Below, in pieces: positions 26,861 to 46,411 of a stretch of DNA of 64,000 nucleotides. The translations under genes were made by a program, and so were the position numbers. Source of the stretch: Roseateles sp. (GTDB lineage: Bacteria > Pseudomonadota > Gammaproteobacteria > Burkholderiales > Burkholderiaceae_C); assembly GCA_016790285.1 (NCBI GenBank), contig JAEUPJ010000033.1:1-64000 (forward strand). Reading direction: 5' to 3'. A model generated the notes under the pieces. It saw only the letters and a program-made list of their open reading frames with translations. It was not told where the DNA came from and searched no databases. How positions within the stretch are numbered: position 1 is the stretch's first letter; the number at the start of each line of letters is the position of its first letter.

Positions 26861-27217
26861 ATGAGACTCATCGAGATCCGCACCTACCGCCTCAAGCCGG
26901 GCTGCGCCGAGGCCTTTGTCGACGCGGTGGGCGTGGCGCTGCCGCTCGTGCGCGCCAGCGGCATGGACGTCGTCGCGTTCGGGCGCTCGGACCACGAGCA
27001 CGAGAGCTTCTTCCTGATCCGCGCCTTCGACAGCCGGGCGCAACTCGTTGCCCAGCAGGACGCCTTCTACGGCTCCGACACCTGGCGCCAGGGGCCCCGG
27101 CAGGCGCTCGTCGACTGCCTGGACACCTACCTCAACACCCTGCTGTGGCTCCCGGCCGACGCGGTGGAGGCCCTCCGGGCCAACCATCAGGCCTTCGGGA
27201 CAACGCCACCCGTTTGA
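26861..27217 (+). CDS. NIPSNAP family protein
   Basis: A 118-residue protein with a single NIPSNAP-like ferredoxin-fold domain (MRLIEIRTYRLKPG at the start and SFFLIRAFDS near 47-56). Such proteins are small dimeric alpha-beta barrel proteins of unclear role, sometimes monooxygenase-like. AGGAGA at 26848-26853 supports the ATG at 26861. Its TGA stop at 27215-27217 lies inside the -35 of the next predicted promoter, so it is probably not part of the downstream unit. Confidence 0.85.
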   Translation: MRLIEIRTYRLKPGCAEAFVDAVGVALPLVRASGMDVVAFGRSDHEHESFFLIRAFDSRAQLVAQQDAFYGSDTWRQGPRQALVDCLDTYLNTLLWLPADAVEALRANHQAFGTTPPV

Positions 27218-27245
27218 ACCTCCCGGCTCCGGGCCGGCACTCACG
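27213..27245 (+). promoter_or_regulatory. ECF sigma promoter, copy 3, before B12-type radical SAM gene
   Basis: TTTGAACCT at 27213-27221, 15-bp spacer, GCACTCACG at 27237-27245. The -35 and -10 blocks are identical to those before the monohaem lipoprotein gene (41116-41148) and match 16 of 18 positions of the copy before the ECF sigma gene (44311-44343). The predicted start near 27252 leaves a short leader with GAGGAG before the GTG at 27273. Confidence 0.75.
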
Positions 27246-27272
27246 CGCTGACTCCATGCCCGAGGAGAAGGC

Positions 27273-28670
27273 GTGCTCTCCATCCTGGTCGGCCACAGTT
27301 TCTTCCTGCGCTTCGATGCCAAGCAGTTCGAACGCGCCAAACCCTACCCGCCCCTGGCCACCTTGCAGGTGGCCGCCCTGCTGCGCCGCCTGGGCCACGA
27401 GGTCGCGTTCTTCGACGCGATGCTCGCCGCCGGCACGCAGGATTTCGACGCCCAGCTGGCCGAGAGCCGGCCCGACGTGGTGCTGCTCTACGAGGACAAC
27501 TACAACTACCTGAGCAAGATGTGCCTGGGCAAGATGCGTGAGGCCGCCTGCGCCATGGTGGCCAGCGCCCGGCGCTCGGGCGCCCGCGTCATCGTGGCGG
27601 GGTCGGACGCCAGCGATGCGCCGGACGTCTACCTGAGCGCCGGGGCCGACGTCGCCCTGCGCGGCGAGGGGCTGGATGCCCTGCCCGCCCTGCTTGGCCG
27701 CCTGCAGCGCGAGCCCCAGCTGTCGGGCGCCGAGCTGATGACCGGCCTGCCGCAGCCGGTCGCCCTGCCCCGCAACGACGATGCCGAGCTGGAAGCCCCG
27801 GTCGCCTGGGACCTGGTCGACATCGACCGCTACCGCGGCACCTGGCAGGCCGCCCACGGCCGCTTCAGCCTGAACATGGCGGCGTCCAAGGGCTGCTCCT
27901 TCCGCTGCGCCTGGTGCGCCAAGCCCATCTGGGGCCAGCGCTACCAGCAGCGCAGCCCGCTGGCGGTAGCCGCCGAGATGGCCGAACTCAAGGCCCGGTT
28001 CCAGCCCGACCACATCTGGTTCGCCGACGACATCTTCGGCTTTCGCGCCGACTGGGTGCAGCGCTTCGCCGACGAACTCCGGCGCCTGGGCGGCGGCATC
28101 CCCTTCTCCATCCAGACCCGCGCCGACCTGATCAGCGACGCCATGGCGCGCGCGCTGGCCGACGCGGGTTGCCAGGAAGCCTGGATCGGCGCCGAAAGCG
28201 GCAGCCAGAAGGTCCTGGATGCGATGAACAAGGGCACCACCGTCGCCGAGATCCACGAGTCGCGTCGGCGGCTGCAGGACGCCGGCGTGCGCGTGGGCTT
28301 CTTCATCCAGCTCGGCTACCTTGGCGAGGGCCTGCCCGAGCTGCTGCAGACGCGCCAGCTCATCGAGGAGGCCTGCCCCGACGACATCGGCGTGAGCGTG
28401 TCCTACCCGCTGCCGGGCACGCGCTTTCACGAGCAGGTCAAGGCCCAGCTCGGCGCCAAGACGCACTGGACCGACAGCGCCGACCTGGCCATGATGTTCC
28501 GCGGCAGCTTCGGCACCGAGGTGTACCGCACGGTGCGCGACCTGCTGCATGCGCAGGTGGACCTCGGCCGGCTCGCACCCGCCGCGCGTGCGGTCGCGCT
28601 CGACCAGATCCGCCAGCGCTGGGCGGCGCTCATCGAGCACCTGAGCCCCGCGAGGGCCCTCACCCCGTGA
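27273..28670 (+). CDS. B12-binding-type radical SAM protein
   Basis: A 465-residue protein. Residues 1-150 form a Rossmann-like cobalamin-binding-type domain (PPLATLQVAALLRRLGHEV start), though the canonical DxHxxG is not evident. The radical SAM cluster is C208-x3-C212-x2-C215 in KGCSFRCAWCAKP. A core TIM barrel follows with IGAESGSQKVLDAMNKG. Start at GTG 27273 with GAGGAG upstream. Members include methyltransferases and ring-forming enzymes acting on lipids or natural products. It has its own ECF-type promoter and ends 11 bp inside the convergent HprK-like gene. Substrate unknown. Confidence 0.85.
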   Translation: MLSILVGHSFFLRFDAKQFERAKPYPPLATLQVAALLRRLGHEVAFFDAMLAAGTQDFDAQLAESRPDVVLLYEDNYNYLSKMCLGKMREAACAMVASARRSGARVIVAGSDASDAPDVYLSAGADVALRGEGLDALPALLGRLQREPQLSGAELMTGLPQPVALPRNDDAELEAPVAWDLVDIDRYRGTWQAAHGRFSLNMAASKGCSFRCAWCAKPIWGQRYQQRSPLAVAAEMAELKARFQPDHIWFADDIFGFRADWVQRFADELRRLGGGIPFSIQTRADLISDAMARALADAGCQEAWIGAESGSQKVLDAMNKGTTVAEIHESRRRLQDAGVRVGFFIQLGYLGEGLPELLQTRQLIEEACPDDIGVSVSYPLPGTRFHEQVKAQLGAKTHWTDSADLAMMFRGSFGTEVYRTVRDLLHAQVDLGRLAPAARAVALDQIRQRWAALIEHLSPARALTP

Positions 28671-29667
28671 GCAGCGAGCGCACCGCCTGCGCACCGTCGC
28701 GGGGGTGGCCGCCCCGGCGCAGGGCCCAGCCATGAACCTGCTCGCACGCGCCCACCAGGCTCAGCCAGCCGGGCTGACCCGCCGCGTAGGGCTGGCTCAG
28801 GCGCAGGCGCCGCGCGGTCTCGGCCGCACTCAGCGGCTGCAGCAGCGGCCCGCCTTCGGCCGGCTCGGCCGATGCGAACACCAGGTGCCTGAGCCGCAGC
28901 GGCCCGGCGGCCAGCGGCGCCCACCCGCCGCGCAGGTCCAGCTCGTGCTTCTCGACACCGCTGCGTCGCCGGATCACCGGGGCAGCGGCCAGCCGCGCGC
29001 GCAGGCCGTCGTCCTGCAGCCACTGGGCGGCATCGAAGCGCAGGTGCACGAAGTTGGGCACCCCCACCGCCTGCAGCGTGACCGGGTCGACGAAGGTCGC
29101 GTCCTCCGTCAGGAACGCCAGGCCGAGCCCCATCAGCTGCAACGCCAGTGTCGACTTGCCGGCGCCGCTCGCCCCCATGAGCAACACGCCCTGGCCATCC
29201 AAGCCCACGCAGCCGGCGTGCAGGGCCGCCAGGCCACGGGCCCGGCACACCAGCGTGAAGACCGCGAACTCGATGAGCTCGTAGCGCAGGTGGTAGGGCC
29301 AGCGCAGCAGGGCCGGCGACACCTGCACCACGGCCCGGCCTGCGGCCACGTTCACGAGCGCCAGGTTGTCGGCATCCATCACGGCGCCCAGCAGCCCGGC
29401 GCCGCCGAGCATGCGGGCCACCGGCGGCTCGCCGTCAAAGTTGGCCCCGCCCGTGCCCAGCCGCAGCTCGACAGTGAGCGGCGGCCCCTGGCACGCGCGC
29501 GCCGGCAGCGCCGCGTAGGCGGCGTCGGCCAGCGCGAGCAGCGCCTCGCTGTCGCTGAGGAAATCGACGCACGCGCCCATCACCACATGGCTGCGGGACA
29601 GCGCGAGCGGCGCCTGCTCGCCAAAGGGGTCGGCCACCTGCCGGGTGTCAGCTTGCCATTCGGACAT
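28660..29667 (-). CDS. HprK-related kinase
   Basis: A 335-residue protein with an HPr-kinase-like P-loop, GASGAGKST at 165-173, preceded by AALHAGCVGLDGQG. It lacks the N-terminal HprK regulatory domain of Firmicutes and no HPr gene is near. This fits HprK-related kinase A, which co-occurs with a nucleotidyltransferase of the kind encoded divergently 13 bp away. In lasso-peptide clusters a similar kinase/nucleotidyltransferase pair phosphorylates a peptide, but no lasso genes are present here. Start at 29667 with GGAGA on the minus strand. Confidence 0.8.
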   Translation of the reverse strand: MSEWQADTRQVADPFGEQAPLALSRSHVVMGACVDFLSDSEALLALADAAYAALPARACQGPPLTVELRLGTGGANFDGEPPVARMLGGAGLLGAVMDADNLALVNVAAGRAVVQVSPALLRWPYHLRYELIEFAVFTLVCRARGLAALHAGCVGLDGQGVLLMGASGAGKSTLALQLMGLGLAFLTEDATFVDPVTLQAVGVPNFVHLRFDAAQWLQDDGLRARLAAAPVIRRRSGVEKHELDLRGGWAPLAAGPLRLRHLVFASAEPAEGGPLLQPLSAAETARRLRLSQPYAAGQPGWLSLVGACEQVHGWALRRGGHPRDGAQAVRSLLTG

Positions 29668-29669
29668 GC

Positions 29670-29680
29670 GGGGAGTCTCC
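29670..29680. promoter_or_regulatory. Shared two-strand ribosome binding site
   Basis: The 13 bp between the divergent start codons at 29667 (minus) and 29681 (plus) contain GGGGAGTCTCC, which provides GGGGAG on the plus strand and GGAGAC on the minus strand, each at usable spacing. There is no room for promoters, so each must lie in the opposing coding sequence. Confidence 0.55.
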
Positions 29681-30910
29681 ATGAAATCCATTGAATTGCC
29701 GCGCGGGCCTGCGTTGCAGGCGACGCTGCGGGTCACGACGCAGCGCCTGGCCGCCGAACTGGCCACGCCCACGGCGCAGGCACCGGCCTGGGACGACGTC
29801 ACCTGGCGCGTGGCCATGGCGGTTGCGGTGATGCACGGCGTCAGCGGCCTGCTGGCGACGCGGCTGCAGTGGCGCGGCCCGCCCGCGTGGCAGGCCTTCC
29901 TCGCCGAGCAGGCCGAGCATGGCCGCCGGCGCGAGGCGCGCATCCGCGAGCGCCTGGCGGTGCTGCACGGCGCAGCCACTGCCGCCGGCGTGCCGATGCT
30001 GGCGCTCAAGGGCGCGTCGCTGCTGCAGACTGGGCTCGTGCGCCCCGGCGAGCGGCCCATGAGCGACATCGACCTGCTGGTGGCGCCCGCCGACGTGGAC
30101 GCCGCCGACCGGCTGATCCGCGCGGCCGGCCACGCGCCCGGCGTGCGCAAGCACCGTCACATCGCCTACGAGCCCCTGGCGCAGCCGGCCGCGCCGGCCT
30201 TCGGCGAGCACGAGGACAACCCGATCAAGATCGAGCTGCACACGGCAGTGGCCGAGCCGCTGCCGCGCCGCGAGGTCGACATCACCGCCAGCCTGCCCCC
30301 GCACCGGCCACGCGCCGGGCTGCACGGCTACGCCAGCCCCGGCGCCTTGATGCGCCACCTGTTGCTGCACACCACCGGCAACCTCTGCGTGCGTTGCGTG
30401 CGGCTCATCCAGCTGCACGACATCGCCCTGCTGGCCCAGCACCTGGACGACGCCGGCTGGGCCGAAGCCCTCGCACCCGCCTCGGACGACCGCGCCGCCT
30501 GGTGGGCGGTGCCCACGCTGACCCTGGTGGCGCAGCTCTTCCCGGGGCGCCTGCCGGCCCTGCCGCCGAGCGCACTGCGCGCCTGCCCGCCGTGGCTGCT
30601 GCGCGCGAGCCGCGGCTGGGCGCTGACCGACGTGTCGCTGTCGCACCTTTGCATCCCGGTGCTGCCCGGGCTGGCCTGGGCGCGCGGCCCCGGTGACGCC
30701 CTGGGGCTGGCCTGGCAGCGGCTCTTCCCGGCCGAGCGGGCCGTCACCGCGCAGATCGTGCAACGCCAGCACTCCCTCGCCGGCTCGGCCTGGACGCGCC
30801 AGCCCCCGTGGCGCAAGGCGCTGAGCTTCCTGCGGGGCGCGCCGCCGCGGGCGCAGACGATGTACTCCCTGCATCGCGCCCTCGCCTACCAACCGGCCAG
30901 CTCGGCATGA
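29681..30910 (+). CDS. Nucleotidyltransferase family protein (NTP_transf_5 type)
   Basis: A 409-residue protein. LKGASLLQTG at 109-118 and PMSDIDLLV at 126-134 give the polymerase-beta-type GS and DxD metal site (D129, D131). Further helical parts resemble the PF14907-type family, whose members occur in natural-product and exopolysaccharide loci beside HprK-like kinases. It would transfer a nucleotide or phosphate to an unknown acceptor. Divergent from the kinase; its 3' end overlaps the convergent glycosyltransferase by 25 bp. Confidence 0.82.
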   Translation: MKSIELPRGPALQATLRVTTQRLAAELATPTAQAPAWDDVTWRVAMAVAVMHGVSGLLATRLQWRGPPAWQAFLAEQAEHGRRREARIRERLAVLHGAATAAGVPMLALKGASLLQTGLVRPGERPMSDIDLLVAPADVDAADRLIRAAGHAPGVRKHRHIAYEPLAQPAAPAFGEHEDNPIKIELHTAVAEPLPRREVDITASLPPHRPRAGLHGYASPGALMRHLLLHTTGNLCVRCVRLIQLHDIALLAQHLDDAGWAEALAPASDDRAAWWAVPTLTLVAQLFPGRLPALPPSALRACPPWLLRASRGWALTDVSLSHLCIPVLPGLAWARGPGDALGLAWQRLFPAERAVTAQIVQRQHSLAGSAWTRQPPWRKALSFLRGAPPRAQTMYSLHRALAYQPASSA

Positions 30911-31986
30911 AGCTGCGCAAACCGGTCATGGGTGAAATCGGCGTCCTCGGCCAGTGCGCGCCGCTGGGCGGCTTCGGCCAGGCGCAGGCGCAGGGGCTCG
31001 TCGCCATCCAGTTGCACGAGCAGCCGCGCCAGGCCGGCCACGTCGCCGGGCGCCACGACCAGGGCCGCCCCCGGCGCCCACTCGGCCAGATGGCCGACCG
31101 CCGTGCCGATGCAGGGCACGCCGAGCACCGCGGCCTCCAGCGCCGCCAGCGGCCCGGCCTCGTGGCGCGACGCCACCACGCACAGGTGCGCGCGAGCGAC
31201 CAGTGGCTGCGCCGCACGCTGCGTCATGAAGCCATGGAAGCGCACGCGCTCGGACACGCCGAGTTGCGCCGCCAGGGCCTGCATCTCGCCGTTGAGCGTG
31301 TCCTCGCCGATGAAGTCGGCCTGCACCTGCGGCACCACGCTCAGGGCTCGCAGGAGGCAGCCTGGGTCCTTCACGCGGTTGATGCTGGCCAGCTGCACCA
31401 CGCGCAAGGGCTCGCCCCGCACACGCTGGCGCGGGGCCATGGGCGGCCAGCGGGCCAGGTCCACGCCCAGGGGCAGGCGTTGCCCCGTGTGGCCCAGGGC
31501 AGCGAGCTGTGCGAGTACCGGGGCACTGGCCGCGGTCAGTGCGTCGGCGCCATGCAGCACCCAGGCCTCGCGCAGGCGGCCGCGCCAGGTCAGGCGACCG
31601 CCGTAGCCGATGTCGCCCAGCGCCACGAGCTCGCCACCGGCCACGTGCACGGCGCAAGGCCGCCCGAGCAGGCGCGCCGCCATGACGGCCACCAGCCCCG
31701 CACCGCCCGCCCAGATCGACTGCACCACGTCGAAGCGGCCACGGCGGTGCTCCCGCAGCAGCGCCAGCACGGCGCGCAACTGGCCCAGCGTCGAGCTGCG
31801 TCCGCCGATGTTGTGCACCTGCGCACCGCACAGCCGCCACTGCCCGGGCTGCACCTCCTGGCGCAGCGCGAACACATGCACCTCATGCCGCGCCGACAGC
31901 CGCTCCAGCAGCGCCAGCAGCGCCGGCACCACCTTCACCTCGCCGGAGCGGTCCACACCGCCGGGCACCACGATCGCGATCTTCAA
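30886..31986 (-). CDS. Glycosyltransferase family 4 protein
   Basis: A 366-residue GT-B enzyme. N-terminal VVPGGVDRSGEVKVVPALL gives the acceptor domain, IPALLALL-like helices follow, and the C-terminal donor domain carries LASINRVKDPGCLLRAL and the E-x7-E motif in RHEAGPLAALEAAVLGVP. It likely transfers an activated sugar in the cytoplasm to a lipid- or peptide-linked acceptor. The start is a TTG at 31986 with GGAGG upstream. It diverges from the methyltransferase at 32001 by 14 bp and belongs to the alternating cluster. Confidence 0.85.
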   Translation of the reverse strand: MKIAIVVPGGVDRSGEVKVVPALLALLERLSARHEVHVFALRQEVQPGQWRLCGAQVHNIGGRSSTLGQLRAVLALLREHRRGRFDVVQSIWAGGAGLVAVMAARLLGRPCAVHVAGGELVALGDIGYGGRLTWRGRLREAWVLHGADALTAASAPVLAQLAALGHTGQRLPLGVDLARWPPMAPRQRVRGEPLRVVQLASINRVKDPGCLLRALSVVPQVQADFIGEDTLNGEMQALAAQLGVSERVRFHGFMTQRAAQPLVARAHLCVVASRHEAGPLAALEAAVLGVPCIGTAVGHLAEWAPGAALVVAPGDVAGLARLLVQLDGDEPLRLRLAEAAQRRALAEDADFTHDRFAQLHAELAGW

Positions 31987-32000
31987 ACCCCGACCTCCGC

Positions 32001-32825
32001 ATGAACACGCCCACCCAACTGCAATCCCGCCTGCAGGACACCCAGGCCGCCTTCGACAGCGTCGCCGCCGACTACGACGGCCCGCGCGGCAACAACATCG
32101 CCATCCAGGCCATGCGCGACGAGATGTGGCGTTGGCTGGACCACAGCTTCACGCCGGGCAGCCGCCTCATCGACCTGGGCTGCGGCACGGGGCTCGATGC
32201 CGTGCACCTCGCCGCCCAGGGCCACCACGTGACGGCGACGGACTGGTCCGAAGGCATGGTGGCCCGCACGCGGGACCGCGCCCGCGACGCGGGGCTGGCC
32301 GTCGACAGCCGCGTCATCGGCGCGCACGAACTGCACCGCCTGGAAGGCGATGCGGCTTTTGACGGCGCCTACTCCAACCTCGGGCCGCTGAACTGCGTGC
32401 CCGACCTGGACGACGTCGCCGCGCAGTGCGCGCGCCTGATCAAGCCAGGCGGCCGGCTGGTGTTCACCGTCATCGGCCGCTGGTGCCCGTGGGAGATCGC
32501 CCACTACACGCGCCAGCGCCGCTGGTCGCGCGTGGCGGTGCGCTTCGCGCGCGACACCGTCGCCGTGGGCATGAACGGCCGCACCATCTGGACGCGCTAC
32601 TACACGCCCGCCGAGTTCTACGCCGCCTTCCGCCCGCACTTCGAGCTGGAAGTGCAGCGCGGGCTGTGCGTCTTCGTGCCGCCGCCCTACCTCACGTGGC
32701 TGGCTGAGCGCCACCCGCGCTGGCACGAGCGCCTGTGGGCGCTGGACCGGCGCGTGGCCGGCTGGCCGGGTCTGAACAGGCTGGGTGATCATTTCCTGCT
32801 CGTCATGCGGCGGCGGGTGAGCTGA
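32001..32825 (+). CDS. Class I SAM-dependent methyltransferase
   Basis: A 274-residue enzyme. Motif I is LIDLGCGTGLDAVHLA near 55-70, followed by VTATDWSEGM and a GAYSNLGPLNCV region. No membrane segment. The substrate cannot be read; in this context it may methylate a sugar or aglycone of the cluster product. Its 3' end overlaps the convergent flippase gene by 37 bp. Confidence 0.85.
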   Translation: MNTPTQLQSRLQDTQAAFDSVAADYDGPRGNNIAIQAMRDEMWRWLDHSFTPGSRLIDLGCGTGLDAVHLAAQGHHVTATDWSEGMVARTRDRARDAGLAVDSRVIGAHELHRLEGDAAFDGAYSNLGPLNCVPDLDDVAAQCARLIKPGGRLVFTVIGRWCPWEIAHYTRQRRWSRVAVRFARDTVAVGMNGRTIWTRYYTPAEFYAAFRPHFELEVQRGLCVFVPPPYLTWLAERHPRWHERLWALDRRVAGWPGLNRLGDHFLLVMRRRVS

Positions 32826-34198
32826 GCGGCTTCTTCCAGCAGTGGGTGGCGGCTGGCCCGCAGAGCCGCCAGCCAGGCCAGCGGCACGAGCGACAGCGGC
32901 ACCACCACCACCACGAGGGCCGCGAGCGCACTCCCCCCGAGGGCGGCCCCGACGGCACGCGGCGACAGGCCGAGGTGCTGCGCGCACAGCCGCAACTGCA
33001 GCGGCAGCGCGAGCGCCGCCGCCGCGGCCATGGCCCAGGCGAAGGACGCCACGCTGCCATCGAAGAGCAACACCGCCAGGCCCACGCGTGCCGCAAGCGT
33101 CAGCGCCAGCGGTGACGCCGCCAAACCCGGCCGGCCCACGGCCGCCAGCCCGGCACCGAACTGCTGGAACACGAGCCCGAGCGCCGCCACCAGCGCGAGC
33201 GGCGCCACGGCGGGCACGGCGTCCCGCCAGGCCGCGCCGTACAGGCCGACGATGAGCGGCTCGCGGTAGGCCACGGTCAGCGCCAGCAGCGGCCAGCCCA
33301 GGCCCGTGAGCAGGGCCATCGCCCGCTGCAGCGCCGGGCCGAGGGCCTGGGCCTGCGCGTGCCGCTGCGACAGCACCGGCAGGCTGCCAAAGCTCAGTGC
33401 CCGCCCGGCGAGCACCTGCAGCAGGCCCACGGCGGCCTGGCCGCGGCCGAACAGCCCCAGCAGATGCGCGCCGCCCAGCCGGGCCAGCAGCAGGTCGGGC
33501 ACAAGCCCGTGCAGGCTCGCCAGCGCGCCCGGCAGCAACGACGCCAGGGCAAAGCGCAGCACCTCGCCCATGCCCCGCCACGCGGGCTGCCACGCCAGGC
33601 CGGGTGGCCGCATGCCGGCGTAGGCCAGGCCGCAGGCCAGTGCCGCCGCCAGCTGCGCCCAGGCCAGGCCCAGCGCGCCTGCGCCGTGGCTGCAAAGCAC
33701 CACCGACACCAGCGCCTGCACACCCAGGCCCAGCAGCGAAACGCGGGCGATGCGCCCCGCCGCCAACGCCCGCAGCTGCAGCGCCGCCATCACGCTGCCG
33801 AAGGCCGACAGCGGCAGCATCGCCGCCAGCACCTGCAGCAGCGGCACGAGCGCGGGCTGCCCGAGCTGCGCCGCGAGCGGCTCCGCGCCCAGCAGCAAGG
33901 CAGCCGTCACGGCCGCGGTGGTGCAGCAGGTCAAGCCCAGGCAGGCCGAGAAACGGGCCGGCGTGAGTGCCGGCTCACGCTGCAGGTAGGCCGACAGGCC
34001 CGCGTCCCGCAGCAGCTGCGCGACGCCATACACCGCCATCGCCAGCGCGAAGAGACCCATCTCCGCCGGCATCAGCAGCCGCGCGAGCACCAGGCCCAGC
34101 ACGAAGCGCAAGCCCGTCTCGCCCACCGACGACACCAGGTTGCCCAGCACCGCACGGCGCAGCTCGACAGGCCCCAGGGCCAGCGGCAGCGTGCTCAT
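32789..34198 (-). CDS. Oligosaccharide flippase family membrane protein (Wzx-like)
   Basis: A 469-residue protein with about 12-14 hydrophobic segments and the MOP-superfamily start ELRRAVLGNLVSSVGETGLRFVLGLVLARLL split by turns. Wzx-type flippases move lipid-linked saccharides across the inner membrane. Last gene of the eight-gene minus-strand run, overlapping the upstream glycosyltransferase by ATGA. Its presence argues that the product is a lipid-linked glycan or glycoconjugate that is exported. Confidence 0.85.
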   Translation of the reverse strand: MSTLPLALGPVELRRAVLGNLVSSVGETGLRFVLGLVLARLLMPAEMGLFALAMAVYGVAQLLRDAGLSAYLQREPALTPARFSACLGLTCCTTAAVTAALLLGAEPLAAQLGQPALVPLLQVLAAMLPLSAFGSVMAALQLRALAAGRIARVSLLGLGVQALVSVVLCSHGAGALGLAWAQLAAALACGLAYAGMRPPGLAWQPAWRGMGEVLRFALASLLPGALASLHGLVPDLLLARLGGAHLLGLFGRGQAAVGLLQVLAGRALSFGSLPVLSQRHAQAQALGPALQRAMALLTGLGWPLLALTVAYREPLIVGLYGAAWRDAVPAVAPLALVAALGLVFQQFGAGLAAVGRPGLAASPLALTLAARVGLAVLLFDGSVASFAWAMAAAAALALPLQLRLCAQHLGLSPRAVGAALGGSALAALVVVVVPLSLVPLAWLAALRASRHPLLEEAAQLTRRRMTSRK

Positions 34199-35313: not shown

Positions 35314-35326
35314 CGCCCGTTGCCCG

Positions 35327-37926: not shown

Positions 37927-38567
37927 GGCTTGCCCCAGCGCAGCGCCAGCACCACGCGCAGGCCGTCCCAACGCGCCAGGTGGGGGGCCGTCAGGTCCTG
38001 GCCGATGCGCACCTCGCGCTGCCCCTGCAGCACGAGGCCGGCGGCGCAGGCAGCGCGCAGGTGGTCGTCGGGCTCGTGCAGGGCGTGGGCGAGTTCGTGG
38101 CGCTGGCCGCCGGCGTCGGTGAAGCTGCGCGTCATGCCCACGCGGGCGGCATCGGGGTGGAAGTCGGAGTACACCAGCACGCCGCCCGGCGCGAGCACGC
38201 GCGAGACCTCGGCCATCCAGGCCGCGAGGTCGGGCGCGTGGCCGACGGCCAGGCCGCAGGCGATGACGTCAAAGCTCTCAGCGGCGAAGGGCAGCTGCTG
38301 CATGTCGGCCCGCACGCGGCAGGCCAGCGGCGCACGCGCGAGCATGCCCGCCGAGCGGTCGCAGGCCACCACGCTGCGCGCGCCGCGCTGCTGCATCAAC
38401 AGGCCATAGCGCCCGCTGCCGCAGGCCAGGTCCAGCGCGCGCCGGCCGGCCACGTCGGGCCAGAGCGCCAGCACGGCGGCCTGCTCGGCGGCCATCAGCG
38501 GGTTGTGCGGCAGCGGCGGGTAGTCGCCCGCCCAGAGGTCGTAGGCCGCTTCGTTGGCGAGATTCAT
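37923..38567 (-). CDS. Class I SAM-dependent methyltransferase
   Basis: A 214-residue enzyme of the UbiE/BioC-like fold. Motif I is ALDLACGSGRYGLLM near 43-57, then VACDRSAGMLARA and a FDVIACGLAVGHAPD post-motif; APGGVLVYSDFHP completes the core. The ATG at 38567 overlaps the upstream radical SAM stop by 4 bp. It is distinct from the methyltransferase at 32001. Substrate unknown. Confidence 0.85.
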   Translation of the reverse strand: MNLANEAAYDLWAGDYPPLPHNPLMAAEQAAVLALWPDVAGRRALDLACGSGRYGLLMQQRGARSVVACDRSAGMLARAPLACRVRADMQQLPFAAESFDVIACGLAVGHAPDLAAWMAEVSRVLAPGGVLVYSDFHPDAARVGMTRSFTDAGGQRHELAHALHEPDDHLRAACAAGLVLQGQREVRIGQDLTAPHLARWDGLRVVLALRWGKP

Positions 38568-39547
38568 GTCGGGAACCATTTGGCGCACACGCAGCGCGCG
38601 CACTCGGGCCGCTGGCCCGCCTGGATGGCGGCGCGCAGCTGGCGCTGGGCCGGGGTGTTGAGCGCGGCGCCGAGGCCAGCTTCGCCCAGCCCGCCGGCAC
38701 CGGCGATGAAGAAGCAGGGCCGCAGCCCCCCGTCGGCCTCGACGACGACCGAGTGCTGCGGCGCGTTGCAGCGCACCGCCGGCGGGTCGGCCAGGCCCAG
38801 GTGGGCGCGGTAGTGCGCCTCGATGCGCCCGAGCTTGGCCGGGCTCTCGGCAATGAAGCCGCTCGCGAAGTCGTCGGCATGCGCCTGCGCCAGCCGCGCC
38901 AGGCTGGCCGCCAGCACAGGCATGTCGTCTTCGCGCAGGGCCACCTGGTCATCAGGCTTGCCGTGGCGCCCGAACGCGGCCTCGTGGGCGACGTCGGCGG
39001 CCAGGAAAGAGATGCTGGCCACGCCAAGCTTGTGCGCCAGCGCGACAAGCTCGGGCAGCTCACCCGCATTGCCCCGCTGCACGGTCACGCGCAGGCTCAC
39101 GGGCAGCCCCTCGCGCACGGCGGCCCGCACCCCGGCGCAGACGGCCTCGAAGGCGTCCAGCCCACGGATGCGCGCGTAGCTGGCGGCACTGGCGCCGTCC
39201 AGCGACACCGTCACCTGCTCGAAGTGACGCGCCACCTCGCCGGCCTGCTTGGCCAGCGCGAGCCCGGCGGTGAGCAGCCACAGCCGCAGGCCCTGGGCGC
39301 GCAGCCGGGCCGCGATGTCGCCCCACTGAGGGTGCAGCAGCGGCTCGCCGCCGGAGACGAGCACCGTCTCGACGCCGAGCGCCTGCAACCCCGGCAGCAA
39401 CTGCTCGACGGTGGCGAGGTCGATGTCGCGCCGGCCATGCCGCCAGTAGTCGCAACTCACACAGCGCGAGTTGCAGCGCTCGGTAAGGTACAGGGTCGCC
39501 AGGCGCAGCCGCGTGAGCGCCGGCGCGAGGGCGCCGGCCGCGGGCAT
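38564..39547 (-). CDS. Radical SAM protein with C-terminal cysteine-rich region
   Basis: A 327-residue protein. The cluster motif is C25-x3-C29-x2-C32 in TERCNSRCVSCDYW. GGEPLLHP near 74-81 and VSLDGASAASYARIRG near 112-127 are typical core segments of the PqqE/MoaA group. The end carries further cysteines (VRCNAP, RPCFF, CARCVCAKW) that could bind auxiliary SPASM/Twitch clusters. Such proteins modify peptides or make cofactors. Start at ATG 39547, 10 bp after the porin-like gene. Confidence 0.85.
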   Translation of the reverse strand: MPAAGALAPALTRLRLATLYLTERCNSRCVSCDYWRHGRRDIDLATVEQLLPGLQALGVETVLVSGGEPLLHPQWGDIAARLRAQGLRLWLLTAGLALAKQAGEVARHFEQVTVSLDGASAASYARIRGLDAFEAVCAGVRAAVREGLPVSLRVTVQRGNAGELPELVALAHKLGVASISFLAADVAHEAAFGRHGKPDDQVALREDDMPVLAASLARLAQAHADDFASGFIAESPAKLGRIEAHYRAHLGLADPPAVRCNAPQHSVVVEADGGLRPCFFIAGAGGLGEAGLGAALNTPAQRQLRAAIQAGQRPECARCVCAKWFPT

Positions 39548-39557
39548 GGCGATGACG

Positions 39558-40640
39558 CTAGAACATGGCATGCAGCTCGACGAAGGTCTGCCGCCGGTTG
39601 TCCACCGCGTTCTGCGGGATGCCGCCGAACTTGCGGCTGCCGGCGCGCAGCTGCACGAAGGCGATGGGCGTGTACTCGTAGACGAGGCTGTAGCGCACCT
39701 TGTTGTCGTTGGCCACGCGCCGGTCAGGGTCCAGGTATTCGCTGGTGAGCTTGAGGTTGTGGCCCTGCTGCACGAGCCAGTTGGCCTCCAGCAGCGTCGC
39801 AACCTGACGGCGCTTGCCCTCGGGGTAGCCCTCGTCGCTGACGAGGTCGATCTCGGCCAGCCAGGCCACCGGGCCGGTGGTGGTCCCGGCGAACAGGCCC
39901 CAGGCCTGGCGACCGCCTGCCGAGGACTTCACCTGCGCCGCCGCCGCACCGACACGGCCCCAGGGCTGCATCCAGATCGCCTGCGCGGTGGTCTGGTGGC
40001 CCGTCACGCTGCCCTTGTTGCCGGGCCCGTTGCTGCGCACGACCTGGATGGACCACTCGTCGCTCTCATGACCCAGCTCCAGGCCCTTGTCGGGCACCGT
40101 CATGCTGACGCCGCTGAGCTGGCGCACGAAGGCCAGGCTGTCCTGCAGCCGCCACCCGAACGGCAGGTAGAACTGGCCAGCCTTGGCATACCAGCCCAGG
40201 CCCGGCGTGGACAGGCGCACGTAGGCTTCCTGCCGCTCCGACTTGCCCGGCGCCACCTGCTGGTCGAGGTAGGCACCGAGGTAGTCCTTGATGAGCTGCA
40301 CGTCGGCATACAGCCGCGTCTGCTCGGTGCCGCCGACGCTGCGCGTGGGCTGGCCGGAGACCGACGTGCGCGTCGTGGCGGTGCGCAGGTCGCCGCCCAG
40401 GCGCAGGCGGTCGTCGAACAGGGAGCCGTTCCAGCCCTGCAGCGCCTCCGGCAGCGAATTGGCCGGAATGACGTTCTGCGTGAAGCTGTTGCCCACCGCA
40501 TTGCGCAGGCCGCCGCCCGTGGGGTTGACGTGGCAGGCCACGCACTTGAGCCCGGCGCGGATGGCCAGGTAGGGCTCGGCGCGCGCCGCCTGGAAGCACA
40601 GGGCCAGGGCCAGGCCCAGCAGCAGTCGCACGGCCATCAT
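39558..40640 (-). CDS. Outer-membrane beta-barrel protein with N-terminal CxxCH
   Basis: A 360-residue secreted protein. Signal peptide within 1-22 (VRLLLGLALALCFQAARA), then C33-x2-C36-H37 in KCVACHVNPTGGG, a c-type haem attachment motif, then a long series of alternating hydrophobic strands ending in aromatic Phe (FVELHAMF), typical of an outer-membrane barrel. The combination suggests a barrel with an N-terminal haem peptide facing the periplasm. It overlaps the monohaem lipoprotein gene by 4 bp. Electron transfer across the envelope is speculation. Confidence 0.75.
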   Translation of the reverse strand: MMAVRLLLGLALALCFQAARAEPYLAIRAGLKCVACHVNPTGGGLRNAVGNSFTQNVIPANSLPEALQGWNGSLFDDRLRLGGDLRTATTRTSVSGQPTRSVGGTEQTRLYADVQLIKDYLGAYLDQQVAPGKSERQEAYVRLSTPGLGWYAKAGQFYLPFGWRLQDSLAFVRQLSGVSMTVPDKGLELGHESDEWSIQVVRSNGPGNKGSVTGHQTTAQAIWMQPWGRVGAAAAQVKSSAGGRQAWGLFAGTTTGPVAWLAEIDLVSDEGYPEGKRRQVATLLEANWLVQQGHNLKLTSEYLDPDRRVANDNKVRYSLVYEYTPIAFVQLRAGSRKFGGIPQNAVDNRRQTFVELHAMF

Positions 40641-41086
40641 TTCTGGGCTCCGTTGTTGATCCATTGGCGGATGAGGTTGATGCTCTGCGCGTCGAGGTAG
40701 GGGCCGCCCAGCGGCATGCGCGCGCCCACGGCCTGGTGGCCTTCGAGCTTGTGGATGAGGTAGCTGTTGGCTGCGTCGCCCGGGGCCACGCGCATCAGCG
40801 AAGGCACCTCGCTGCTCGCCGCGCCCACCAGCAGCGCGTAGCTGTTGGTGGCGTCCAGCCGCAGGCCGCGCGGCGCGGCGGCACCGGCATGGCAGGCCGT
40901 GCACATCGGGGTGAACACGTGCGACTGGATGGAAGCGAAGCTCGCCGTCATGGGCCCGCTCGGGTCGACACCTTCGCCAAGCGGTCGCCCGTTGGCGTCC
41001 AGCCCGTCGCCACTGCCGCCGCCGCATCCGGCCACCGTCAAGGCCACGAGGCCCAGCGCGGCCCAAAGCCTTCTCGAGTTCATCAT
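40637..41086 (-). CDS. Monohaem c-type cytochrome-like lipoprotein
   Basis: A 149-residue protein with lipobox LTVAGC (C21) and one haem motif C62-x2-C65-H66 in MCTACHAG. A downstream MPLGG can provide the axial Met. AAAGGA lies just upstream of the ATG at 41086. First gene of an eight-gene run and immediately downstream of ECF-type promoter copy 2. The pair with the haem-motif barrel suggests a small redox module. Similar lipoproteins are often named cytochrome c domain-containing without a known partner. Confidence 0.8.
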   Translation of the reverse strand: MMNSRRLWAALGLVALTVAGCGGGSGDGLDANGRPLGEGVDPSGPMTASFASIQSHVFTPMCTACHAGAAAPRGLRLDATNSYALLVGAASSEVPSLMRVAPGDAANSYLIHKLEGHQAVGARMPLGGPYLDAQSINLIRQWINNGAQK

Positions 41087-41115
41087 CGTCCGTCCTTTAC
41101 CGGGTCTCACTCGGC

Positions 41116-41148
41116 CGTGAGTGCCACGAGAAGGCGGACAGGTTCAAA
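41116..41148 (-). promoter_or_regulatory. ECF sigma promoter, copy 2, before the monohaem lipoprotein operon
   Basis: On the minus strand TTTGAACCT (complement of 41140-41148), 15-bp spacer, GCACTCACG (complement of 41116-41124). The TGA of the torF-like gene (41144-41146) is inside the -35. The start near 41110 leaves about 25 nt to the ATG at 41086. It would drive the eight genes down to 32789. Confidence 0.75.
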
Positions 41149-41854
41149 AGGCGGTGGTCAAGCTCAACAAGCCGGTACGGCGGCGCGTCGCTTCGGTCCA
41201 CACATAGGGCCCGCCGCGACCGGCGCCCACCCAGGCGAGCTGCACTTCCGTGCTGCCGCCCAGCTGCCACGACAGCCCCAGCTGCACGTCAGCGCGCCAG
41301 GCGCGGCGCGTGTCGCCATAGGCCGAGGCTCGCCCTCCCCAGCCGCGCAGCCAGCCCACGTGGCTCACCGCAGCAACGCCGTCGCCCAGCGGCCAACGCG
41401 CGCCGAGTTCCACATAGAGCGTGCGTTGGCCGATGCCGTAGTAGTCGGGCGACGCGTAGGCACGCAGCGTCCAGCCGCTGCCCAGAAGGCCCACGTAGGC
41501 TTCCTGGTAGTCGTAGTGGGACACGTTCTCGTAGAAGCGCGCCGTGACGCCCATCTCGCCGTCCAGCCCTGTGGCCAGCGCCACCACGCGGCCGGCATAG
41601 GCCTGCAGCGTCGCGCCCTGGCGCTGCGTGAAGCGTGCATGGCCGAGCTGGGCGCCTGCGTACCAGCCCGCCTCGCCGTCCCAGGCCAGGCCGGCCTGTG
41701 CGCTGGGCCGGTTGTCGCTGTAGGACACGCCGCGCTCACGCGCGTCGGTCTGGGCCGAGATCGTGCCGCCCACGTCGGCGCGCGCGAACGCCACACTGCC
41801 GAGCAGTGTGGCGAGCAGCAGGGTCCGTCGAGCCGGGCGCGCGGGGGGAGACAT
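41144..41854 (-). CDS. TorF-like putative porin
   Basis: A 236-residue outer-membrane protein. Tat/Sec-like signal (ARRTLLLATLLGSVAFARA) then VGGTISAQTDARERGVSYSDNRPSAQ, the start pattern of the TIGR02001/TorF putative porins, and eight or so amphipathic strands ending in F. Last gene of the sigma / anti-sigma / protease operon, sharing the A of TGATG with the protease stop. It may be the channel or receptor served by this sigma system. Confidence 0.8.
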   Translation of the reverse strand: MSPPARPARRTLLLATLLGSVAFARADVGGTISAQTDARERGVSYSDNRPSAQAGLAWDGEAGWYAGAQLGHARFTQRQGATLQAYAGRVVALATGLDGEMGVTARFYENVSHYDYQEAYVGLLGSGWTLRAYASPDYYGIGQRTLYVELGARWPLGDGVAAVSHVGWLRGWGGRASAYGDTRRAWRADVQLGLSWQLGGSTEVQLAWVGAGRGGPYVWTEATRRRTGLLSLTTAF

Positions 41855-43065
41855 CAGTCGGGAGTCTGCCCCAGCGGTGTGCAACCCGGCGAGCGCCCCT
41901 GCAGATGACGGGCCAACGTGGCGCAACTGTCGATGCGGCCCTGGGCGGCAGTGACCAGCGCCGTCCTGAGCATGGTGGCGCCGCGGCTGCCGTCCAGCTC
42001 CCTCACCAGGGCCAGCAGCCCGGCTGCGTGGGCCGCCGCGAAGGACGAGCCCGACACGAGCGCGAAGCCGCCACCCACGGCCGTGCTCGGCACGTCGCGC
42101 CCCGGTGCGGTGACGGCGCCCAAGGGCAATGGCGGCGCGCTGCCCACGACGAGCACGCCGCGATGGTTGGCCGGGAAAGGCCCCCCGCTGCCGGGCAGTG
42201 CGGCCACCACCGTGGCCCCGCGCGCCAGGGCCTGATCCAGCAGCAGCGCCAGCAGCCGGTCGTCGGGCCCGCCCAGGCTCATGTTGATGATGTGCGCGCC
42301 CTGCTGGATGGCCGCATACAGGGCCTTGGCCAGGCCGAGGCTGGTGCACAGGGTCTGCTCCTGCGGGGCCTGCCAGCAGGCCCGCAGGGCCAGCAGCCGC
42401 GCCTGCGGCGCCACGCCGGCGATGCCCAGGCCGTTGTCGGCCCGCGCCGCGATGATGCCGGCTACCGCGGTGCCATGCCCCTCGGCGGGCGAGGCGCGGT
42501 CGTCGACGAAGTTCTCGTTGGCAACAACCTGCCCCGCCAGGTCGGGGTGGCGCACGTCGACGCCGCTGTCCACCACCGCCACGCGCACGCCGCGGCCGGT
42601 GGCGAGCTTGTGCAACTCGGCCAGGTGCCACTGCTGGGCGGCAGGCTGCGCAGCGTAGAGCGGCTCCTGCTGGGCACCCTGCGCGCGGTACAGCCCGACC
42701 GGCTGGGCCCACGCGACGCGCCGGTCTTCCGAGACGGCGCGGGCGACGTCAGCCGAGGTCCGGTTGTCGCCATCGGCCAGCCGCATGACGAAGCAGTCCA
42801 CGCCGGCCAGCGGCATCGCCCACTGGCTGCGCATCTCCAGCCGGTAGGCCTTGGCCAGGGACTCGGCCACCTGCTGGCGCGACTGGCGCCCCACGCCCTC
42901 GCCGTAGGTGCCGGCATAGCTGCCGTCGGGCCGGTAGTGGGCCTTGGGCAGCTGCAGCATCACGAGCACCTGCCGCTCGGCCTCCTCGGCCTGGGCATGG
43001 GCGGTGTTGCCCGCCAGGCACAGCAGCAGCGCCAGCAGCGCCAGCAGCGTCCACAGCAGCTTCAT
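41854..43065 (-). CDS. S8 subtilisin-like serine protease
   Basis: A 403-residue secreted protease. Signal peptide 1-24, a propeptide to about 150, then the catalytic triad: D166 in VAVVDSGVD, H197 in EGHGTAVAGI, S341 in SGSSFAAAHAAG; N near 261-262 region (IINMSLGG) fits. The GTS motif is GSS here, but the nucleophile is retained. It overlaps the anti-sigma stop by ATGA. In this context it may cleave the anti-sigma factor or process an exported product. Periplasmic or extracellular. Confidence 0.9.
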   Translation of the reverse strand: MKLLWTLLALLALLLCLAGNTAHAQAEEAERQVLVMLQLPKAHYRPDGSYAGTYGEGVGRQSRQQVAESLAKAYRLEMRSQWAMPLAGVDCFVMRLADGDNRTSADVARAVSEDRRVAWAQPVGLYRAQGAQQEPLYAAQPAAQQWHLAELHKLATGRGVRVAVVDSGVDVRHPDLAGQVVANENFVDDRASPAEGHGTAVAGIIAARADNGLGIAGVAPQARLLALRACWQAPQEQTLCTSLGLAKALYAAIQQGAHIINMSLGGPDDRLLALLLDQALARGATVVAALPGSGGPFPANHRGVLVVGSAPPLPLGAVTAPGRDVPSTAVGGGFALVSGSSFAAAHAAGLLALVRELDGSRGATMLRTALVTAAQGRIDSCATLARHLQGRSPGCTPLGQTPD

Positions 43066-43673
43066 CGGGCAGGCCCCGGCTGCAGCGGCTCGGCCATCGC
43101 CACGATGGGCGCGGCGCGCAGCGCGGCCAGCCCCCCGGCGTCGATGCGCAGCAGCCAGGCGCCCGTCTCGGTCGGCCCGGCGACGATGCCGGCCTTCTCG
43201 GCCTGAAGCAGCTCGCGCACCGCCTGCTCGCTGGTGCCCGGCTTGAACATCACGAGGGCGTCGGCCACCACGGGCGCCGTTCCGGCCGCGGAGAGGCCCT
43301 GGTAGGCGGGCTCGTCCTGGCGCGTGGTGAGCAGCACACCCAGCAGCACCGCCACCGCGGCGCCCTGCAGGCCCAGGGCCCAGGGCATCCACCGCGGGGC
43401 GGGGGCTCGCTTGGGGCGCGCGGGCGTCATCAGCGCATGCATGCGCGCCAGGCCCGCCTCGACGTCGCCAACCGGGGCCGGCGTGCCGGCCACATGCATC
43501 AGCGTCTGCATGGGCTGCTCGGCGGCCATCTCCTGGCGGCAGGCCGTGCATTGCATCAGGTGCTGCTGCACCTGGGCCATCTCGGCATCGTCCAGCTGGC
43601 CACGGGCATACCAGGGCAGCAGCGCCTGCACGGCGGCATGCTCGTCCTGCTCCATCGGGATCACGGTACTCAT
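43062..43673 (-). CDS. Zinc-finger anti-sigma factor with prodomain-like periplasmic part
   Basis: A 203-residue single-pass membrane protein. H38-x3-C42-x2-C45 in HLMQCTACRQ is the zinc anti-sigma (ZAS/zf-HC2) motif that holds the ECF factor. A transmembrane helix lies near 97-117. The periplasmic part (ALVMFKPGTSEQAVRELLQ, GPTETGAWLLRI) resembles the N-terminal prodomain of fervidolysin-like subtilases. That resemblance, and the S8 gene directly downstream, suggests the protease and anti-sigma interact. Overlaps the sigma stop by 4 bp. Confidence 0.85.
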   Translation of the reverse strand: MSTVIPMEQDEHAAVQALLPWYARGQLDDAEMAQVQQHLMQCTACRQEMAAEQPMQTLMHVAGTPAPVGDVEAGLARMHALMTPARPKRAPAPRWMPWALGLQGAAVAVLLGVLLTTRQDEPAYQGLSAAGTAPVVADALVMFKPGTSEQAVRELLQAEKAGIVAGPTETGAWLLRIDAGGLAALRAAPIVAMAEPLQPGPAR

Positions 43674-44293
43674 CGCAGGTCTCCTTGATGACCGGCCAGG
43701 TCATCGAGCAGCTGGCGCAAGCGCCGCCGCGCATAAAACATCCGGGTCTTGACCGTCTCGGCCGGGCAGCCCACCACCTCGGCGATCTCGGCATAGGCCA
43801 TGTCGTGGAAGTAGCACAGCTCCACCACCGCGCGGTGCTCGGGCGAGAGCTCGGCCATGGCGCCCCGCAACCGGCCGCGCAGCTGGGCCAGGCCCAGGGT
43901 CTGCTCGGGGCCAGGGCCTGTGTCCACAGGCTCCTCGGCCTCTTCGGCATCCACCGGCAGGTCCTGGCGGCTCAGGGCCTTGAGGGCCTTGCGGTAGGCA
44001 ATGCCGAAGATCCAGGTGGAGAGCTTGCTGCGCCCGTCGAAGCTGTCGGCACGCTGCCAGACCACCAGCAGGGTGTCGTTGAGCACCTCTTCCAGCAGGT
44101 CGGCCTGGCGCAGCATGTGGGCCAGGAAACGCGACAGCCGCGGGTGGTAGAGCCGGTACAGGGCGTCGAACTCGGCGCGCCGGCCGCGCCGGATGCCCTC
44201 CAGCAGGCCCAGCTCCAGGGCCTCGGACGCGGGCCCACGCCCGGTGTCGGGCGCGTCATCGCGCTTTTTCTTGAGGTTGAGCCACTTCAACAT
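43670..44293 (-). CDS. ECF RNA polymerase sigma factor
   Basis: A 207-residue group 4 sigma factor. Region 2 spans about 35-100 (FDALYRLYHPRLSRFLAHM, DLLEEVLNDTLLVVWQRADSF, LSTWIFGIAYRKAL) and region 4 about 140-195 (LSPEHRAVVELCYFHDMAYAEIAEVVGCPAETVKTRMFYARRRL in segments). ATG at 44293 with AAGGA upstream. It is the first gene of its operon and its promoter carries the TTTGAACCT element, so it likely autoregulates. Linked anti-sigma, protease and porin follow. Confidence 0.93.
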   Translation of the reverse strand: MLKWLNLKKKRDDAPDTGRGPASEALELGLLEGIRRGRRAEFDALYRLYHPRLSRFLAHMLRQADLLEEVLNDTLLVVWQRADSFDGRSKLSTWIFGIAYRKALKALSRQDLPVDAEEAEEPVDTGPGPEQTLGLAQLRGRLRGAMAELSPEHRAVVELCYFHDMAYAEIAEVVGCPAETVKTRMFYARRRLRQLLDDLAGHQGDLR

Positions 44294-44310
44294 GGGGGTC
44301 CTTGGTTGCG

Positions 44311-44343
44311 CGTGTGTACCTGGGGGGCGCAAAAAGGTTCAAA
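44311..44343 (-). promoter_or_regulatory. ECF sigma promoter, copy 1, before the sigma gene
   Basis: On the minus strand TTTGAACCT (complement of 44335-44343), 15-bp spacer, GTACACACG (complement of 44311-44319). It differs from the other two copies at 2 of 18 element positions and the spacer length is the same. The start lies near 44305, 12 nt before the sigma ATG. Confidence 0.75.
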
Positions 44344-45558: not shown

Positions 45559-46401
45559 ATGGACGCCGTCATCGAAGTCGACAACGTGACCACGGCCTAC
45601 GGCGGGCACGTCATCCACCGCCATCTCAACCTGACGGTGCACCGGGGCGAGGTCATGGCGCTCATCGGCGGCTCGGGCTCGGGCAAGACGACCCTGCTGC
45701 GCCTGCTGCTCGGCCTGGAGGTGCCGCAGGCGGGCAGCGTGAAGATCTTCGGCCACCCGCTCGGGCGCTGCGCCGCGCGCGACCTGGAGCGCGTGCGCTA
45801 CCGCTGGGGCGTGCTGTTCCAGAGCGGCGCGCTGTTCTCGGCACTCAACGTGTTCGACAACATCGCCCTGCCGCTGCGCGAGCTCGGCAGCGTGCCGCGC
45901 GACCTGATCAAGCCGCTGGTGATGCTCAAGCTCGCGCAGGTGGGCCTCAAGCCCGAAGACGCGCTCAAGCGGCCGGCGGAGCTGTCGGGCGGCATGGTCA
46001 AGCGCGTGTCGCTGGCCCGCGCCCTCATCCTCGACCCGCAGCTGCTCTTCCTGGACGAGCCCACCGCCGGCCTGGACCCCGACAGCAGCAAGCAGTTCGT
46101 GAAGCTGCTGCGCCGGCTGCGCCAGGAGCTGGGCCTGACCGTCGTCATGGTCACGCACGACGTCGACACGCTGTTCGCCGTCGTCGACCGCGTGGCCGTG
46201 CTGGCCGACCAGCACATCGTCGCCTGCGGCCCGCTGGCCGAGGTGGCGCGCCTGCCCCACCCCTTCGTGCGCAACTTCTTCCTCGGCCATGTGGAGCGCT
46301 GCGCCGAGGACGACCTGCGCCGTTTCCGACTGAGCCTGGACGACACGTCCGACGACGGCGGCGTCCCGGCCGTCCTGCGCGGCGAAGAAGCCCTCCACTG
46401 A
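45559..46401 (+). CDS. mlaF: Mla-type ABC transporter ATPase
   Basis: A 280-residue ATP-binding protein. Walker A GGSGSGKTT near 35-43, Q-loop in VLFQSGALFSALNVFDN, signature LSGGMVKRVSLARAL, Walker B LLFLDEPTAGLDP, and a late H-loop VTHD near 197. It powers the lipid transporter together with the MlaE-like permease 4 bp upstream. Length and motif order are normal for MlaF. Confidence 0.93.
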   Translation: MDAVIEVDNVTTAYGGHVIHRHLNLTVHRGEVMALIGGSGSGKTTLLRLLLGLEVPQAGSVKIFGHPLGRCAARDLERVRYRWGVLFQSGALFSALNVFDNIALPLRELGSVPRDLIKPLVMLKLAQVGLKPEDALKRPAELSGGMVKRVSLARALILDPQLLFLDEPTAGLDPDSSKQFVKLLRRLRQELGLTVVMVTHDVDTLFAVVDRVAVLADQHIVACGPLAEVARLPHPFVRNFFLGHVERCAEDDLRRFRLSLDDTSDDGGVPAVLRGEEALH

Positions 46402-46411
46402 CCCGACCTCC

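Follow-up and report, generated by a model that had tools for sequence, protein, structure and literature searches.

The stretch analysed here (the window) comprises 64,000 nucleotides of a Roseateles sp. genome (contig JAEUPJ010000033.1 of assembly GCA_016790285.1), in which a two-part sequence element recurs around a gene for an extracytoplasmic function (ECF) sigma factor. The sigma gene is followed on its strand by genes for a zinc-finger anti-sigma factor, a subtilase, a TorF-like porin, a lipoprotein and a second porin, then by a long set of biosynthetic and export genes, at the far end of which a gene for a B12-binding radical S-adenosylmethionine (SAM) protein faces inward (Table 1). 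Gene identities were taken from Pfam and NCBIfam matches, with the exception of the second porin, which has no Pfam match and was assigned by fold. The Pfam scan of the sigma factor (207 aa) returned regions 2 and 4 and no match to region 3.

The full pattern, TTTGAACCT-N15-GYACWCACG, matches the window at exactly three positions, before the sigma gene (P1), the lipoprotein gene (P2) and the inward-facing radical SAM gene (P3), and has no match in 100 dinucleotide shuffles of the window. The −35 part is identical at all three sites and the spacer between the halves is 15 bp at each, while the −10 part reads GCACTCACG at the lipoprotein and radical SAM sites and GTACACACG at the sigma gene, which differs by two bases. 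Each copy lies in the right orientation 17, 29 or 27 bp before a start codon that is itself preceded by a purine-rich stretch, and two of the three include the TGA stop codon of the preceding open reading frame (ORF) within TTTGAACCT (27215-27217 and 41144-41146). The initial annotation had described three copies of equal spacing, two of them alike and the third differing at two bases, at 12-30 bp before start codons, and all of these details were recovered. The whole-genome scan that it proposed as a check returned the same three exact matches only, all within 17 kb of a 5.88-Mb assembly in 107 contigs.

Relaxing the pattern to as many as three mismatches added four scattered genomic matches (one with two mismatches, three with three), compared with none for a backwards-pattern control; these four were not retained. 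The core of the element, TTGAACC-N16-GNACWCA, likewise has its only exact genomic matches at the three window sites. Allowing one mismatch raises the count to six, the three window sites among them, which equals the six of the backwards control; of the additional matches, the one at C16:2206 is an exception, as it is kept in relatives upstream of a second ECF gene (ECF2, see below). A shortened pattern built on TGAACC and allowed three mismatches performed at chance level in the window (6 matches against 5.68 expected), so the information resides in the long two-part element alone.

Table 1 Candidate promoter elements and genes of the locus (positions in the window).
Feature	Position	Strand	Remarks
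Candidate promoter element P1, TTTGAACCT-N15-GTACACACG, sigma operon	44311..44343	-	17 bp before ATG 44293; in 16/16 loci; weight-matrix score 27.9
Candidate promoter element P2, TTTGAACCT-N15-GCACTCACG	41116..41148	-	Overlaps stop of TorF-like gene; 29 bp before ATG 41086; weight-matrix score 34.3; 14/18 loci at ≤3 mismatches
Candidate promoter element P3, TTTGAACCT-N15-GCACTCACG	27213..27245	+	Overlaps stop of upstream ORF (end 27217); 27 bp before GTG 27273; weight-matrix score 41.2; 10/10 orthologues
ECF sigma factor of 207 aa with regions 2 (45-111) and 4 (140-194)	43670..44293	-	Pfam, TIGR02937 above cut-off
Anti-sigma factor, zf-HC2 (HxxxCxxC), helix 96-118, C-terminal domain from 136 with predicted subtilisin-propeptide fold	43062..43673	-	Pfam, fold prediction
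S8 (subtilase) peptidase; Asp/His/Ser triad present, aligned oxyanion position not Asn	41854..43065	-	Pfam, alignment
TorF/Gcw_chp family putative porin	41144..41854	-	Pfam/NCBIfam
Lipoprotein with one CxxCH motif	40637..41086	-	Pfam/NCBIfam
Predicted 16-stranded outer-membrane porin, N-terminal CxxCH	39558..40637	-	Structure model
Radical SAM/SPASM protein	38564..39547	-	Pfam/NCBIfam
SAM-dependent methyltransferase	37923..38567	-	Pfam/NCBIfam
Amidohydrolase	36802..37926	-	Pfam/NCBIfam
B12-binding radical SAM protein 2	35327..36805	-	Pfam/NCBIfam
Glycosyltransferase (GT4-like)	34195..35313	-	Pfam/NCBIfam
Polysaccharide flippase (Polysacc_synt)	32789..34198	-	Pfam/NCBIfam
Methyltransferase; no element of its own	32001..32825	+	Pfam/NCBIfam; weight-matrix scan
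Glycosyltransferase; no element of its own	30886..31986	-	Pfam/NCBIfam; weight-matrix scan
NTP_transf_5 nucleotidyltransferase; no element of its own	29681..30910	+	Pfam; weight-matrix scan
HprK-like protein (Hpr_kinase_C match under Pfam cut-off); no element of its own	28660..29691	-	Pfam; weight-matrix scan
B12-binding radical SAM protein 1, facing inward from the far end	27273..28670	+	Pfam/NCBIfam

Conservation was assessed in relatives collected by two routes. Relatives of the lipoprotein (P0004) occur in 13 of 299 genomes of the family, giving 13 mapped regions in 11 of which the porin adjoins, and a search of genome contigs with the porin alignment yielded 276 relatives, 80 of which were kept; among the records are Roseateles, Pelomonas, Paucibacter, Aquabacterium, Methylibium, Steroidobacteraceae and Nevskia. 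Several genomes appear under two handles (G030/G306, G156/G310, G238/G308, G084/G309 and G111/G312), and the loci L054 and L077 come from a single genome. Since genomes are shared in this way, the family surveys of lipoprotein and core pattern are not independent of the locus footprinting, of the counts in system-bearing genomes and of the search for ECF2 in them. The element precedes the sigma gene at constant spacing with 0-3 mismatches in all 16 loci (window counted); upstream of the lipoprotein gene it has 0-3 mismatches in 14 of 18 loci and five mismatches in the other four; and upstream of the B12-binding radical SAM gene it is found with 1-4 mismatches in 10/10 orthologues (67-86% identical). 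It is absent upstream of four distant paralogues of the latter gene (33-48% identical; G301, G306).

The core pattern also co-occurs with the sigma factor, which exists in T and A types named after a residue of region 4.2 (see below). Nineteen system-bearing genomes, two of which (G182, G227) carry an A-type sigma, hold 36 exact core matches spread over 15 of the 19, as compared with a single control match; 32 of the 36 are at sigma, lipoprotein or radical SAM promoters, three precede ECF2, and one lies ~0.4 kb before a glycosyltransferase gene (GT2) of a split cluster. This last case is found in Roseateles saccharophilus (L161, G307:C20 around 89501), where the cluster is distributed over several contigs and no intact gene stands directly behind the element, which suggests a relocated promoter or a remnant. 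Across all 299 family genomes there are 45 core matches against 63 for the backwards control. Eight of these genomes, namely those where the lipoprotein match led to a T-type sigma (the sigma itself was not searched in all 299), account for 13 matches and no control match, two of the eight (G111, G206) being without any match, and the remaining 291 contribute 32 against 63. Outside the genomes where a T-type sigma was seen, the core pattern is at background.

For a score that is blind to the window, a position weight matrix (PWM) was trained on 35 sites of relatives (14 sigma, 12 lipoprotein and 9 radical SAM promoters). Left out of the training were the sigma and lipoprotein sites of L053 (a near-copy of L052), the lipoprotein sites with five mismatches (L055, L059, L063, L077), the radical SAM site of L129 (four mismatches) and L139, the second piece of the G206 gene. 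The core positions carry 1.2-2.7 bits, with 0.3 at the unconstrained base of the −10 part, and the spacer positions reach at most 0.6 bits, save for the base adjoining the −10 part (1.2). In the window the three sites scored 41.2 (P3), 34.3 (P2) and 27.9 (P1), the fourth-best position 4.2, and the maximum over 40 order-2 Markov shuffles was 18.5. Left-out lipoprotein sites scored 13.8 (L055), 22.0 (L063) and 9.3 (L077), and in 18 loci of relatives, most of whose sites are training sites, scores of at least 8 fell only at sigma and lipoprotein genes, besides three of 8.3-10.8. A search of the Roseateles sp. genome for sigma region 4 gave 44 matches, 34 above the cut-off; in 30 stretches around such matches, scores of at least 15 occurred only at the sigma gene (27.9) and at ECF2 (17.9).

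The sigma factor and its sites also vary together. A sigma could be recognised at 44 loci, and its region 4.2 residue within the motif TVKxR is T in 29, A in 14 and S in one. The third base of the −35 part, which had been left free in the search, is G at all 38 sites of T-type sigmas, compared with C at 11 and A at two of the 13 sites of A-type sigmas. This search covered 143 regions, 93 of them without a match; the matches came from 21 loci of the T type and 8 of the A type, and ~1.6 chance matches were estimated. At the S-type locus (L067) the base is again G, with the spacing longer by one base. The Fisher value for these counts overstates the evidence, because in the tree T and A are separated by a single change, with a further one leading to S (L067), hence one or two events. 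The direction of the change is as would be expected if the sigma reads the element.

It is thus very probable, as judged from sequence comparison, that the three elements are ECF promoters (−35 TTGAACC, −10 GNACWCA, 16 bp between the cores) read by the sigma factor at 43670-44293. Autoregulation of ECF sigmas and regulons linked to them are familiar features. Such an autoregulated ECF promoter with this sigma as its reader had been proposed in the initial annotation, and the proposal gains support from the cross-genome footprinting, the background counts in genomes where no such sigma was seen, the window-blind PWM and the change in region 4.2. The sigma would transcribe its own operon of sigma, anti-sigma, subtilase and TorF-like porin, the lipoprotein/porin operon with continuation into the biosynthetic genes, and the B12-binding radical SAM gene at the far end, so that only three transcripts would start at an element rather than one for every gene of the 17 kb. 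Three look-alike sequences would in this way become a promoter model with a named reader and a short list of sites for one genome.

How the sigma might be controlled is suggested by the two genes that follow it. In the anti-sigma, H38, C42 and C45 (HxxxCxxC) are invariant in 38/38 members, all of which match PF13490 (E ≤ 0.1), and by this motif it would be a class I zinc-binding anti-sigma (ZAS). Helix 96-118 is presumably a membrane helix, which would place the C-terminal domain in the periplasm. That domain is predicted to adopt a subtilisin-propeptide fold (I9/Fervidolysin_NPro-like). Of the 43 loci with an anti-sigma gene, 41 have a gene for an S8 peptidase adjoining it in the same orientation and the other two are cut by the locus edge, and the Asp/His/Ser triad is present in 42/42 aligned S8 proteins. 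Given the propeptide fold and the adjacent subtilase gene, docking of the protease on this domain can be inferred. The zinc-finger membrane anti-sigma would hold the sigma, the subtilase would dock on the propeptide-like domain and would then either cleave the anti-sigma as a site-1 protease or report its own free or occupied state, and the sigma would be released. A propeptide-like domain with an adjacent subtilase suggests a way of switching on such sigma systems; for the specific step in which the subtilase acts on the anti-sigma to release the sigma, our belief is nearly balanced and leans slightly to doubt.

A competing view, which we regard as a live if somewhat doubtful possibility, is that the sigma is freed by ordinary DegS/RseP-like proteolysis, that the subtilase is a mere member of the regulon, and that the resemblance to propeptides reflects a chance ferredoxin-like fold. 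Three points speak for it: beta-alpha-beta folds like this one occur widely, with NikR at Foldseek ranks 9-10 and unrelated folds from rank 24 in the VIA comparison; the window anti-sigma has no Pfam prodomain match; and the subtilase lacks the canonical asparagine of the oxyanion hole, a residue with a role in subtilases. Asn is found at the aligned position in none of the 42 S8 proteins, with L052 and L053 having one nearby in a loop; membership of the S8 family does not require this residue, but the peptidase activity may be reduced or specialised. Against chance resemblance, Foldseek ranks 1-7 are all subtilisin propeptides or pro-subtilisins (rank 8 being an 81-residue 'PAM Protease' chain), and VIA ranks 1-23 are all subtilase propeptides, pro-forms or propeptide-like inhibitors. 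PF22148 is matched by 12 of 38 anti-sigma members (E ≤ 0.1, best 2.6e-5), the window member not among them, and on rescanning three of five members matched at E ≤ 1, all under the cut-off, and none of eight others at E ≤ 0.01. In addition, a profile of the domain matches the N-terminal region of the neighbouring protease (75.9%, E 2.3e-5), whereas two control pairs reach 0.3% and 0.04%, and the same-strand adjacency of the S8 gene counts in the same direction.

A fourth site lies outside the locus. ECF2 (C16:2242-2766; PhyR_sigma2 plus region 4) is an orphan, unlinked gene, and the single-mismatch core match at C16:2206 stands 4 bp before its ATG (locus L174, C16:2206-2766), so that its transcript would be nearly leaderless. 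The element precedes ECF2 in 9/9 close orthologues (its own copy and L238-L245), all in sigma-bearing genomes, and is absent from 27/27 ECF2-like genes of other family genomes (L211-L237) and from 3/3 ECF2 paralogues in the same genomes (L246-L248). In each of six loci inspected, the gene after ECF2 codes for a secreted protein, homologous between the loci, and the copy in the Roseateles sp. genome has a PEP-CTERM motif. On the simplest interpretation, which is also the more likely one, the sigma has ECF2 as a fourth target, and a small sigma cascade via ECF2 towards an exosortase system is possible. The element before ECF2 itself, in all nine close orthologues, could also mean that another sigma, chiefly this orphan, reads the sites, or that both do so with overlapping specificity. 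We consider this improbable: ECF2 is absent (E ≤ 1e-45) from 11 of 19 genome handles, corresponding to 8 of 16 distinct genomes (three handle pairs are identical), and loci of such genomes retain the sites (L046, L047, L050, L055, L058, L063, L077), therefore ECF2 is not needed as the reader. The ECF2-like genes and paralogues without the element argue in the same sense, and region 4.2 of ECF2 differs (VMSR), although some overlap in specificity is conceivable. It is very improbable that the element is a transcription-factor operator. A conserved two-part sequence could be one, but the element is not palindromic, has ECF-like spacing, always stands in one orientation just before starts and has a −35 base that follows sigma region 4.2, and the sigma and anti-sigma are the only regulators among the mapped module genes.

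The regulon of the sigma factor appears to consist of a conserved core and variable cargo. The biosynthetic set is present in the stretch covered in nine of the 16 sigma loci (window counted), and the other seven (L047, L048, L053, L055, L061, L062, L077) run from sigma to porin without it, therefore the core would be the sigma operon, the lipoprotein and the porin, with the biosynthetic genes as optional cargo. Past the porin, the next predicted gene is on the opposite strand in L047, L055 and L061 and is a same-strand ORF without identity in L062 and L077; the L077 genome has a second lipoprotein/porin copy, this one with the biosynthetic set (L054). In L048 and L053 a different B12-binding radical SAM set (33-48% identical) follows the sigma/porin core, which looks like an exchange of one cargo for another of its kind. 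The candidate regulon of the initial annotation is supported with qualifications: the biosynthetic genes are optional, those at 28660-32825 lack a site of their own and the fourth site is unlinked.

Within the cargo, the six genes from the flippase to the inward-facing radical SAM gene (27273-34198) alternate strands with overlapping tails, by 37 bp for flippase/methyltransferase and by 25 bp for the glycosyltransferase GT1/NTP_transf_5 pair (each in 8/9 loci), and the predicted heads are at most 29 bp apart (nine and six loci for the two head pairs). The short head gaps and tail overlaps leave little room for ordinary promoters, and the window has no PWM score of at least 8 beyond the three sites that could mark own promoters of the methyltransferase, GT1, NTP_transf_5 and HprK-like genes. 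The arrangement resembles an overlapping, non-contiguous operon in which only the inward-facing outer promoters are apparent, and the genes at 28660-32825 could be reached only by read-through. As P2 and P3 face each other across the alternating genes, convergent read-through would be the economical way to include them, and we infer that it could cover the whole cluster. The promoter model would also offer a regulatory handle on a still uncharacterised set of biosynthetic genes, which includes those of three radical SAM enzymes.

Combining these elements, the locus may encode a self-contained unit in which the free, co-encoded subtilase is the direct input, or presumed signal, and captures the propeptide-like domain of the anti-sigma, which is then destroyed. 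It would represent a new principle of ECF activation, present in Burkholderiales and in Gammaproteobacteria from soil, which would drive a small cascade (orphan ECF, PEP-CTERM protein) and an envelope and biosynthetic set from two convergent promoters; we put this forward tentatively, with more doubt than belief. The prodomain-protease reading would, if true, open a new route from an extracytoplasmic protease to transcription, in a field where ECF input signals are mostly unknown.

The promoter recognised by E. coli RpoE contains GGAACTT. With systems of the RpoE/RseA type, the one described here shares a two-domain ECF sigma, a presumably autoregulated promoter, a zinc-finger anti-sigma (the anti-sigma comparison matched ChrR and RsiW chains) and a −35 part containing AAC. 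It differs from them in its −35 TTGAACC and −10 GNACWCA, in the propeptide-like C-terminal domain of the anti-sigma with a subtilase in the operon, and in a very small apparent regulon, three of whose four sites lie in one locus. Bacillus subtilis RsiV (PMC4183432), a lysozyme receptor, is reported as an anti-sigma that binds the enzyme and is then proteolysed stepwise; an enzyme-binding anti-sigma is likewise proposed here, whereas the partner suspected in this case is a protease from the same operon, and the domain is similar to propeptides of that protease class. The ECF54 group has a subtilase in its neighbourhood, and AntA is degraded by ClpXP (PMC8999054), which similarly ties sigma control to a peptidase, although no anti-sigma takes part there and proteolysis is shown or proposed on the sigma itself. 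Unlike in subtilisin propeptides and POIA1-type inhibitors (3cnq, 1scj, 1spb, 1v5i), the predicted domain sits on a sigma inhibitor rather than on a protease, and its sequence identity to propeptide structures is 14-18% (VIA rows to rank 20). Searches of open-access PubMed Central (PMC) papers yielded no report of an anti-sigma with a propeptide-like domain beside its own subtilase and no paper on a system with the gene set of this locus.

The porin of the conserved core was modelled from 45 sequences as a barrel of 16 strands (predicted local distance difference test, pLDDT, 84; predicted template modelling score, pTM, 0.82) that matches OprP (template modelling (TM) score 0.68) and other porins. 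Its N-terminal CxxCH is invariant (45/45) but falls within a low-confidence stretch of the model. Together with the CxxCH of the lipoprotein it may point to c-type haem in the outer membrane, possibly as a haem-bearing porin pair. On the other side of the sigma gene, Mla-type transport genes (ABC ATPase, MlaD) occupy 45559-47386 of the window and are divergent from the sigma promoter.

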